Source: an uncultured Pelagibacteraceae bacterium | Lineage (GTDB): Bacteria > Pseudomonadota > Alphaproteobacteria > Pelagibacterales > Pelagibacteraceae | Length of the DNA stretch: 54,636 nt | Direction of reading: 5' to 3' | Assembly: GCA_902569615.1 (NCBI GenBank) | Contig: CACFUX010000004.1 | Coordinates: 1-54,636 of the forward strand | Part shown: positions 31,816 to 34,994 of the stretch, piece after piece | How positions within the stretch are numbered: the first letter of the stretch is position 1 | How the letters are laid out: each line of letters starts with the position of its first letter | The notes under the pieces: generated by a model | The model's database searches: none | What the model saw: the letters and a program-made list of their open reading frames with translations, nothing else | What the model was told of the DNA's origin: nothing | Position numbers and translations under genes: made by a program

Positions 31816-32232
31816 CTATCTTTCTTTATATGGCTCAGAAATTAATGCGACTTTAGTAAATCCAGAACCAGATAACATTCCCATTATTTCTAAAACTCTT
31901 CCATAATTAATTGTTTTGTCACCTCTCACATATATTCTAGTATCTGTTCTATTTTTTGAAACAGCTAAAATTTTAGCTATTATTTTATCATACTCTACTT
32001 TTGACTCTTGTATAAAAATTTCTCCTTTTGAATTGATTGTTAAAGTTAATGGTTCTTGCTCCTCTGGCAATGAGTCTGCTGAACTTTCGGGTAAATCAAC
32101 TTGAACTCCAACTGTAAGTAAAGGGGCGGTAACCATAAATATAATTAGTAAAACCAACATCACATCAACGAAAGGTGTTACATTAATTTCATTTATTGGT
32201 TCTCTAGTTGAACTTTTAAATTTAAATGCCAT
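31816..32232 (-). CDS. tolR: Tol-Pal system protein TolR (ExbD/TolR family)
   Basis: Small inner-membrane partner of the TolQ proton channel. The 138 residues have a cytoplasmic start (REPINEINVTPFVDVMLVLLIIFMV), whose membrane helix contains the essential aspartate of the VTPFVD motif. The periplasmic domain ends in IYVRGDKTINYGRVLEIMGMLSGSGFTKVALISE, typical of the family. Three bases separate it from both tolQ and tolA. Confidence 0.97.
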   Translation of the reverse strand: MAFKFKSSTREPINEINVTPFVDVMLVLLIIFMVTAPLLTVGVQVDLPESSADSLPEEQEPLTLTINSKGEIFIQESKVEYDKIIAKILAVSKNRTDTRIYVRGDKTINYGRVLEIMGMLSGSGFTKVALISEPYKER

Positions 32233-32235
32233 TAA

Positions 32236-32910
32236 TTAAATTATTGATGTAAATCTTTTTGAAAAAGACTCAAGTTTCTGAAAATATTTTTTAGAATCGC
32301 TGCTAAATTTATTGTAAGCTACAACAGCTGGTATTGCAGCTAATAGACCTAAGGCAGTAGCAAACAGTGCTTCTGCTATTCCTGGTGCAACAATTGCCAA
32401 ACTGGTATTTCTTGAAATTGCAATAGATTGGAAAGAATTCATTATACCCCAAACAGTTCCAAATAAACCTATAAAAGGAGCGGTAGATCCAACGGTAGCT
32501 AAAAAAGTATAACTCTTTTCAATAGTATTCATTTGTTTTTCAATACTGACTTGCAACATACTTTCAAGTTTGTTTGACAAATTTGATTTTGACCTTGATT
32601 TTACAATGACTTGCATTGTGTCCTTAAATACATTTGCCATAGGATCATCTATTTTATCTGGTAAAGTATTATAAAAATTTTCTGCAGATCTAGATTTCCA
32701 AAACTTATTTTCAAATTCTTCTGAACTTTTATTAATTTTTTTAAAAAGACGATACTTTTCTATAATAATTGCCCATGAAAAGATCGACGATGCTATCAAT
32801 ATTATGATAACAGATTTCACAATGATGTCTGCTCTTATAAATAAATTTAAAATTGAAAAATCAGCGCTACTTGCGAGACCTACTGCTTGTGATGAGATAT
32901 CTGCTTCCAT
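32236..32910 (-). CDS. tolQ: Tol-Pal system protein TolQ (MotA/TolQ/ExbB family)
   Basis: Proton-channel subunit of the Tol motor. The 224 residues have an N-terminal membrane helix (about 30-50, IVKSVIIILIASSIFSWAIIIEKY), a large cytoplasmic loop and two further helices. The conserved block LATVGSTAPFIGLFGTVWGIMNSFQSIA and the helix VAPGIAEALFATALGLLAAIPAVVAYN line the channel. First gene of the tol operon. In many alphaproteobacteria ruvA, ruvB and ybgC lie between ruvC and tolQ; here only 53 bases remain. Confidence 0.97.
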   Translation of the reverse strand: MEADISSQAVGLASSADFSILNLFIRADIIVKSVIIILIASSIFSWAIIIEKYRLFKKINKSSEEFENKFWKSRSAENFYNTLPDKIDDPMANVFKDTMQVIVKSRSKSNLSNKLESMLQVSIEKQMNTIEKSYTFLATVGSTAPFIGLFGTVWGIMNSFQSIAISRNTSLAIVAPGIAEALFATALGLLAAIPAVVAYNKFSSDSKKYFQKLESFSKRFTSII

Positions 32911-32963: not shown

Positions 32964-33458
32964 TTATTCTTGTTTTTTATAAGTATTATAAAAAAAACTA
33001 GCAATTAAAATTGCATCAGCTTTATTTGAGTCTTTTTTTCTAGATAATTGCCCTGAAATATAAGGAAAAATTTCAATAACTTTAGTTCTGCTTGCATCTT
33101 TTTCTGTTTTAATTAAACCAAAATATTTTTTCCACTTTGCGGGTCTTACAAAGTGCATGGATAATTGCATAGCTGAACATATTCCCTTTAAAACACCAAA
33201 AGACTGACCAAAATTAAACATGCTGGTAACGCCTTGTCCTGGCATAGCTGAAACTTGTTCTATAACAACAATTATATCTTTTTTTGGAACTCCATTAATT
33301 CTTTTAGAAATTTCATTGTATATTTGTGGTCCATTTACTTGTCTTTTATTTTTCTTTCCGTCAGCCATAACTGGCATTTCAACTATTTCAGCAACTTGGC
33401 CATTTTCAAAAAAGCAAATAGCTCCTGAAATACCTGGGTCTATACCTATTATTAACAT
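32964..33458 (-). CDS. ruvC: RuvC-like Holliday-junction resolvase, phage-type variant
   Basis: RNase H-fold nuclease predicted to cut Holliday junctions. The 164 residues show the acidic catalytic residues: Asp in LIIGIDPGISGAI, Glu in IIVVIEQVSAMPGQGVTSMF, and Asp in KKDSNKADAILIASFF. The sequence around the second acidic residue (MPGQGVTSMFNFGQSFGVLKG), the PAKWKKYFGL stretch and the KDASR block differ from canonical RuvC. To my recollection they match the RuvC-like proteins common in phages and some bacteria. The gene nevertheless occupies the canonical yebC-ruvC locus. ruvA and ruvB are not in the window. Function as the cellular resolvase is likely but inferred. Confidence 0.82.
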   Translation of the reverse strand: MLIIGIDPGISGAICFFENGQVAEIVEMPVMADGKKNKRQVNGPQIYNEISKRINGVPKKDIIVVIEQVSAMPGQGVTSMFNFGQSFGVLKGICSAMQLSMHFVRPAKWKKYFGLIKTEKDASRTKVIEIFPYISGQLSRKKDSNKADAILIASFFYNTYKKQE

Positions 33459-33467
33459 TAATTTTTT

Positions 33468-34184
33468 TTATAATTTCGCATTAGTATAAACATTTTGTAC
33501 ATCATCATCGTCGTCTAATATCGATAAAAAATTTATTATTTCTTCCTTTTCTACAGGCAATAACTCAATTTTGTTTAAAGGAACCCATTCAATTTCAGTA
33601 GATAAAAAATTTGAAATGGTATTTTCTAATTTTTTTTTAACATTATATATTTCGCTCATATCACACTGAATTTCATGAAAATGCTTATTTGAAAAACATT
33701 CGATTGCACCTGAATTTATTGTTAAGTCCAATATTTTATCTTCTGTCGCTTCAGTTAAGTCAATTTTTATTACCCCTAATTGCTGAAAATTATGTGATGC
33801 AGCTCCTTGAGTTCCCAAATTTCCTCCATTCTTTTGAAAAATAGTTCTTAAATTTGATGCTGTTCTATTTTTATTATCAGTTAAAGTCTCTACTATAACT
33901 GCAACTTTTTTTGGTCCAAACCCTTCATATCTCATGCTTTCATAATTTGATGCATTACTAATTTGGGATTTTTCAATTGCTCTTTGAATATTTTCTTTAG
34001 GCATATTTGATGACCTCGCTGATTGTATGGCAGATCTTAACCTTGAATTCATATCTGGATTTTTATCGCCTAATTTTGCGGCAATAGTAATTTCTCTTGA
34101 GAGTTTAGAAAAAAGATTTGATCGAGCCTTGTCTGCTTTTCCCTTTTTATGTTTTATTCCAGCCCAATGAGAATGCCCTGCCAT
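33468..34184 (-). CDS. yebC: YebC/PmpR family regulatory protein
   Basis: A TACO1/YebC family protein. Members have been described as transcriptional regulators and, more recently, as ribosome-associated factors easing translation of difficult proline-rich stretches. The 238-residue protein has MAGHSHWAGIKHKKGKADKARSNLFSKLSREI, SAIQSARSSNMPKENIQRAIEKS, YEGFGPKKVAVIVETLTDNKNRT and GGNLGTQGAASHNF, all strongly conserved. It lies directly upstream of the ruvC-like gene (9 bases), the common proteobacterial pairing. Confidence 0.95.
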   Translation of the reverse strand: MAGHSHWAGIKHKKGKADKARSNLFSKLSREITIAAKLGDKNPDMNSRLRSAIQSARSSNMPKENIQRAIEKSQISNASNYESMRYEGFGPKKVAVIVETLTDNKNRTASNLRTIFQKNGGNLGTQGAASHNFQQLGVIKIDLTEATEDKILDLTINSGAIECFSNKHFHEIQCDMSEIYNVKKKLENTISNFLSTEIEWVPLNKIELLPVEKEEIINFLSILDDDDDVQNVYTNAKL

Positions 34185-34193
34185 AAATATAAA

Positions 34194-34994
34194 TTATTTA
34201 TTTAATTCTCCACCTTTAATGAAGGACTCAACTTTGTTTGCCAAACCATTTGATATGTTACATTCAACTATGAGTCCACACAAAGTTCCTTCTCCTTCTG
34301 CAGGGTAATGTTTTTGCGACTCTTTTTTTAAAAAACGATTTAAAGAATTTATTTTATCCATTCCAATAACAGAATTATAATCACCACACATTCCAGCATC
34401 AGTTAAATAAGCTGTTCCATTTAATAAAATTCTACAATCATTTGTTGGAACATGTGTATGTGTTCCAACTAGCAATGTCGCTTTACCATCAAAAAAATGT
34501 CCCATGGCCATTTTTTCACTTGTTATTTCTCCGTGAAAATCAACTACTAAAAAGTCATAATCTTTTTTTAACTTATATTTATTTAAAAATTTATTAGCTG
34601 TTTCAAAAACGTTTTCACATTTTTTCATAAAAACATTGCCCATTAAATTTAAAACACCAACTTTAAAACCTTTTTTAGTCTTAAAAATTCCAAATCCCTT
34701 ACCGGGTGAATTAGATGTTAAGTTTTCGGGTCGTAAAAGTCTAGACTCTCTCTCTATATGATTTGTTGTTTCTTTTTGGTCCCATACATGATTTCCAGTA
34801 GTGATAACATCTACACCTAAAGAAAATAATTCATTTGAAATTTCTTCAGTTATACCTACACCTTGATCAGCAGCATTTTCACCATTTACAACAACAAAAT
34901 CAATATTTTTATCTTGAATAGTTTCTTTTAAATTTTTATTAATTGCTATTCTTCCAGACTTTCCAACTATATCACCTAAAAAAAAAATTTTCAT
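34194..34994 (-). CDS. YmdB-type metallophosphoesterase (TIGR00282 family)
   Basis: Calcineurin-like metallophosphoesterase of the family typified by Bacillus YmdB, which hydrolyses 2',3'-cyclic nucleotides. The 266 residues carry the metal ligands in the family motifs FFLGDIVGKSGR, VVNGENAADQGVG, ITTGNHVWDQKE, DFHGEITSEKMAMGH and VGTHTHVPTNDCRILLNGTAYLTDAGMCG. It overlaps the upstream cyclo-ligase gene by 4 bases and precedes yebC by 9 bases. The biological substrate in this organism is unknown. Confidence 0.9.
   Translation of the reverse strand: MKIFFLGDIVGKSGRIAINKNLKETIQDKNIDFVVVNGENAADQGVGITEEISNELFSLGVDVITTGNHVWDQKETTNHIERESRLLRPENLTSNSPGKGFGIFKTKKGFKVGVLNLMGNVFMKKCENVFETANKFLNKYKLKKDYDFLVVDFHGEITSEKMAMGHFFDGKATLLVGTHTHVPTNDCRILLNGTAYLTDAGMCGDYNSVIGMDKINSLNRFLKKESQKHYPAEGEGTLCGLIVECNISNGLANKVESFIKGGELNK

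Follow-up and report, generated by a model that had tools for sequence, protein, structure and literature searches.

The window, that is, the whole 54,636-bp stretch of DNA analyzed here, is contig C4 of a 928-kb assembly (73% complete) of an uncultured Pelagibacteraceae bacterium. It belongs to SAR11, which is among the most abundant bacteria of the sea. The open reading frame at 32964-33458 on the minus strand begins with ATG, encodes 164 amino acids, and is a real gene, for a Holliday junction resolvase of the MOC1/phage type with an RNase H fold, as assigned from PHROG_1770, the sequence and fold of MOC1, and a tree. Its upstream neighbour is yebC (33468-34184, minus strand), identified as an edge of the ruvCAB slot by synteny in SAR11 and canonical loci. 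Neighbourhood comparison identified a conserved ymdB-like phosphodiesterase gene (34194-34994), tolQ (32236-32910) as the downstream edge of the slot, and tolR (31816-32232), all on the minus strand, giving the order ymdB, yebC, resolvase, tolQ, and tolR. The preliminary description had placed the gene between yebC and tolQ, and it indeed lies 9 bp from the former and 53 bp from the latter. That alphaproteobacteria carry ruvC at this place also proved correct, as yebC adjoins ruvC in 28 of 30 canonical loci. The yebC synteny of the resolvase is kept in 109 of 110 SAR11 loci.

The resolvase gene is under strong purifying selection. Comparison of the window gene with eight close relatives gave dN values of 0.06-0.10 and dS values of 0.7-1.6, and 43 residues were invariant across the alignment of 128 SAR11 homologues. 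The GC3 of the gene (0.16) is like that of its neighbours (0.14-0.19). In one genome (G137, L100 3499-3989), the resolvase, tolQ, and tolR were all frame-broken, most likely through assembly errors.

The protein matched PHROG_1770 'Holliday junction resolvase' over its full length (residues 1-162, 2.5e-35). The Pfam RuvC model PF02075 gave no match to it, and the score with NCBIfam RuvC NF000711 was 16.5 bits, where 163 are required; these results bear out the earlier claim that the protein stands apart from canonical RuvC. The best sequence match in the set of solved structures was MOC1 (monokaryotic chloroplast 1), the Holliday junction resolvase of plant chloroplasts, at 5.5e-14 with the single sequence (NtMOC1) and 4.2e-32 with a profile. 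An AlphaFold model built from 73 sequences (pLDDT 92.5, pTM 0.89) gave the same picture: ranks 1-12 of the fold comparison were all MOC1, with RuvC from rank 13 downward, and the TM score was about 0.87 to MOC1 junction complexes and about 0.5-0.7 to RuvC entries. The protein does not belong to the RecU type, as no RecU family was found among the sequence matches and the model has the MOC1/RuvC RNase H fold.

The phylogeny, which had been named beforehand as the refutation check, comprised 97 proteins, including 26 alphaproteobacterial RuvC, 16 SAR11 proteins, 53 viral or prophage proteins, and two plant MOC1. All 26 alphaproteobacterial RuvC fell on one side of a 100/100 branch, so that the window protein stands outside canonical alphaproteobacterial RuvC, and all 16 SAR11 proteins formed one clade (100/99) on the phage/MOC1 side. 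The closest viral sequences share 48% identity with the SAR11 resolvase and named phages 42% or less, indicating that the transfer is old or that the donor is unsampled.

The three sequence blocks that had been taken as typical of phage RuvC-like proteins are all present, namely MPGQGVTSMFNFGQSFG (residues 72-88), PAKWKKYFGL (residues 106-115), and KDASR (residues 120-124), and they agree with the majority consensus (AMPGQGVTSMFNFG, WKKxxGL, and KDASR) of a set of 73 sequences from SAR11 and viruses. These blocks are characteristic of phage MOC1-type proteins. The active site could be located by alignment with NtMOC1, whose catalytic tetrad is D116/D118/E175/E258. The first catalytic Asp, D7 of a GIDPG motif (33438-33440, minus strand), corresponds to D116 and is Asp in every SAR11 sequence reaching that far and in nearly all viral homologues. 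The catalytic Glu, E67, corresponds to E175 and begins the segment EQVSAMPGQGV (residues 67-77; 33228-33260, minus strand), which includes the base-recognition loop and in which the NtMOC1 loop positions Y180 and D183 are M72 and Q75. The C-terminal active-site segment DSNKAD, from D143 to D148 (33015-33032, minus strand), ends in the counterpart of E258. In addition, K120 of the KDASR block (33099-33101, minus strand), an invariant basic residue, is Lys in 128 of 128 SAR11 and 89 of 89 viral sequences in the alignment. Thus D7, E67, and D148 of the tetrad are conserved, whereas D118 is replaced by Gly9, likewise Gly in all 89 viral members compared. The position of ZmMOC1 H253 is S144 in the window protein and varies across SAR11. 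As D118 is replaced and S144 is not conserved, metal coordination must differ in detail from that of the plant enzyme. D143, N145, K146, and D148 are invariant in the 128 SAR11 copies and position 144 varies, which suggests a lineage-specific active-site edge in SAR11.

The resolvase gene was found in 87 of 147 Pelagibacterales genomes, all of them members of the Pelagibacteraceae (family f1), of which 94 genomes were sampled. Seven Pelagibacteraceae genomes are without the gene and one more has a mere fragment of it; yebC is likewise missing or partial in all eight, indicating that the locus is unassembled there and that the gene is fixed in the family. Both searches recommended in the preliminary description, for a second, canonical ruvC and for ruvA and ruvB, were run, and neither yielded one in the 147 Pelagibacterales genomes: no genome had a canonical RuvC above the PF02075 cut-off (one SAR11 copy scored 20.4 bits), none had RuvA, and none had a protein of RuvB grade. 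RuvB_N matches occurred in nearly every genome and were rejected as RuvB: these AAA+ proteins, most of them encoded by frames of roughly 420-450 or 550-600 aa, reached at most 33.9 bits, versus 409-554 bits for held-out true RuvB. The complete genome G011 (1,308,759 bp, minus an 8-kb masked stretch) was searched with models of RuvA, RuvB, and RuvC derived from loci of alphaproteobacteria, on which held-out true RuvA and RuvB score 238-554 bits; it contained no RuvA and no RuvC, and its best RuvB score was 27 bits. Canonical RuvC was present in 316 of 337 genomes of a class-wide alphaproteobacterial sample. Only three other alphaproteobacterial genomes matched the resolvase family, each on a phage-like contig or a short piece of a contig, and these genomes also have canonical RuvC.

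The usual order of this region in alphaproteobacteria is yebC-ruvCAB-ybgC-tolQ. In the genera g2, g3, and g4, ybgC lies between the resolvase gene and tolQ, and the resolvase therefore occupies the exact place of ruvC-ruvA-ruvB. The whole of ruvCAB has been replaced, not ruvC alone. The preliminary description had spoken of a loss of RuvAB contacts, which understates the case, as RuvA and RuvB are themselves absent. In summary of its standing in the genome, the gene belongs to the phage/MOC1-type RNase H-fold group, and occupies the ruvCAB slot as a single-copy, fixed, vertically inherited gene under purifying selection. Taken together, these results make it very probable that it is the cellular Holliday junction resolvase of the Pelagibacteraceae, taken up from a phage ahead of the radiation of the family, and that it sits at the precise site from which ruvC-ruvA-ruvB disappeared. 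The direction of transfer would be from phage to host.

Three other explanations were weighed against this one. The protein might be a fast-evolving canonical RuvC, inherited vertically, whose RuvAB contacts disappeared once RuvA and RuvB had been deleted. Its chromosomal slot is identical and there is a faint similarity to RuvC models (the 16.5 and 20.4 bits given above), although this is expected of any RNase H-fold resolvase; the protein nevertheless groups with the phage MOC1-type at 100/100, its AMPGQG, W109, and KDASR blocks are common to phages and not to RuvC, its model is closer to MOC1 than to RuvC, and in the sister family this slot is taken by a nuclease of unrelated type, so that it is demonstrably replaceable. 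A divergent vertical RuvC was rejected on the tree and fold, and we regard it as very improbable. Of the two alternatives in the preliminary description, in-place replacement is thus supported by the tree and the ruvCAB slot, while ancient divergence of RuvC is contradicted, barring a model error that imitates this result, by the placement of the protein in the phage/MOC1 half. It is less credible still, to the point of being negligible, that the gene is contamination in the assembly or a transient remnant of a prophage. The family is common in phages and its only matches in other alphaproteobacteria are the three on phage-like contigs or short fragments, but those genomes retain canonical RuvC and SAR11 does not. 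Moreover, the SAR11 gene is fixed in its family with the synteny described above, none of the viral loci contains yebC or tolQ, and the gene has host-like GC3 and is strongly selected; synteny and selection rule this origin out.

The third explanation, that the nuclease is retained for another role, phage-related or fork-specific, and that RuvX/YqgF or RecG-dependent replication removes junctions, seems unlikely, if less so than the other two. RuvX/YqgF, another possible resolvase, is present together with RecA and RecG in the complete genome G011, and YqgF has been mentioned as possibly standing in for RuvC and RecU in genomes without either (PMC1193525). However, RuvX accompanies RuvC in most bacteria (PMC1193525) and is therefore no specific substitute, and in the Pelagibacteraceae and in families f2, f30, f127, and f23, where ruvC was lost, a resolvase-type gene, of differing families, occupies exactly this position. 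Different resolvase families in one slot where ruvC was lost are the outcome expected from selection for one function, which favours the reading as a cellular resolvase.

The sister family f2 has neither the MOC1-type gene nor canonical RuvC. Its yebC-tolQ slot is occupied by a PD-(D/E)XK protein of 124-127 aa (PDDEXK_15/Hjc-like; e.g., L041 2318-2698, plus strand); 43 f2 genomes have it and none of the Pelagibacteraceae genomes does. This nuclease scored over the cut-off of PF24608 'Phage putative PDDEXK endonuclease', under that of Hjc, and matched PHROG_244 at 2e-20, and it has relatives in 109 viral stretches, with up to 58% identity. None was found in other alphaproteobacteria, in a sample searched without a positive control. 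In the RuvC-less families f30, f127, and f23, the slot holds a third type, PHROG_2002 'Holliday junction resolvase' (L303 2262-2570, L304 2265-2558, L306 1128-1496, L307 2234-2560, and L308 1143-1469), with 17 viral relatives of up to 78% identity; genome G174 of f30 is a single contig of 1,410,127 bp. Family f45, also without RuvC, has a larger PF24608 (PDDEXK_15) protein of 168 aa between yebC and tilS (L301 1745-2251, before tilS, and L302 945-1451), for which a search for viral relatives returned none. In f97, f93, and some other alphaproteobacteria without a RuvC match (L305, L309, L310, L311, L312, and L313), there was no obvious nuclease beside yebC.

These results suggest that the yebC-side ruvCAB slot of ruvC-less alphaproteobacteria is probably a replacement site, where the whole of RuvABC was lost and its function assumed by single-gene phage-type resolvases. 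It would have received at least three unrelated fillers, i.e., the MOC1-type of the Pelagibacteraceae, the PDDEXK_15/Hjc-like nuclease of f2, and the PHROG_2002 type of f30, f127, and f23, with that of f45 possibly a fourth. In a single-gene yebC tree, f1, f2, f30, f127, and f23 group together weakly (89/82), in a setting where AT-rich sequences can attract each other. This weak grouping would be compatible both with a single ancestral loss of ruvCAB followed by swaps and with several losses.

The expected mechanism can be drawn from the plant enzyme. MOC1 is a dimer that cuts the junction with its catalytic tetrad, and Y180 and D183 of its base-recognition loop enter the crossover first, D183 reading cytosine (PMC7078210). 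By analogy, the SAR11 resolvase would act as a dimer, open the four-way junction, insert its AMPGQG loop at the crossover, and nick two strands symmetrically with Mg2+. Its base preference may be other than the cytosine of the plant enzyme, because the cytosine-reading Asp is Gln75. Branch migration could be carried out by RecG, as the RuvAB motor is missing. The function is thus likely to be Mg-dependent Holliday junction resolution with RecG as the branch migrator. Two predictions follow for the 164-aa protein: that it cuts junctions without RuvAB, and that its base preference is set by Gln75 and not by Asp. SAR11 RecG (L379 3989-6052) scores just under the NCBIfam equivalog cut-offs and is without the usual DEQHRFG motif. 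A search of G011 for the DE.HRFG motif was empty; a loss of RecG there was rejected, since other motifs and NCBIfam detect it.

RuvAB together with a RuvC or RecU resolvase is described as nearly ubiquitous in bacteria, and Firmicutes have RecU in place of RuvC with RuvAB retained (PMC1193525). The SAR11 protein resembles RecU in being a non-homologous resolvase that substitutes for RuvC, and differs in that RecU works with the RuvAB kept by Firmicutes, whereas SAR11 is also without RuvAB. With RuvC (PF02075, part of RuvABC), it has in common the RNase H fold, the DPG motif, the chromosomal position, and the presumed job, although it lies outside the RuvC family by sequence and phylogeny and has no RuvA or RuvB partner. 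It shares with the phage resolvases of PHROG_1770 (e.g., those of Salmonella phage epsilon15, Enterobacter phage Tyrion, and Microcystis phage Mwe-JY08) the sequence family, AMPGQGV and KDASR, and size, at identities of up to 42% for named phages and 48% for viral contigs. Unlike these, it is fixed as a gene of the host, and its last Asp is preceded by NK (residues 145-146), a lineage-specific pair in place of the GR that most viruses have.

The capture of phage recombination genes by hosts is known (PMC8987985). SAR11 is known to recombine very promiscuously and is reported to be without RecBCD, RecF, and MutSL, and the report of these features is silent on how SAR11 junctions are resolved (PMC12374537). 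Our literature search, outside which subscription papers mostly lay, returned nothing connecting SAR11 with ruvABC loss or with this resolvase; an earlier remark on missing ruvABC is possible. The protein belongs to a known family; what appears to be new is that a whole resolvasome was lost and that one slot was filled in different ways. These results name a candidate junction-resolving enzyme for SAR11, whose type is known elsewhere from phages and chloroplasts, and take RuvAB out of the picture. They also provide a natural experiment, in which lineages minus RuvABC carry different resolvases in one chromosomal slot. If the reading of the slot as a replacement site is true, some of the most abundant heterotrophs of the ocean would recombine via phage-derived, RuvAB-independent junction enzymes.

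As its best sequence and fold match, MOC1 (PDB 6kvo and 6jrf) is the closest structural reference for the SAR11 protein, with which it shares the catalytic D7/E67/D148, K120, and a domain of about 160 aa; the CDD name cd22992 is attached to a phage relative. The two differ as follows: identity is 25-29%; the SAR11 protein has Gly for D118, Met for Y180, and Gln for D183, with variation across SAR11 at the position of ZmMOC1 H253; and its gene is bacterial, located in the chromosome at the ruvCAB slot. In the tree, plant MOC1 formed a group (93/89, long branch) with sequences from a Planktothrix phage and from a viral contig (L320 and L195), hinting that chloroplast MOC1 is possibly of cyanophage origin.
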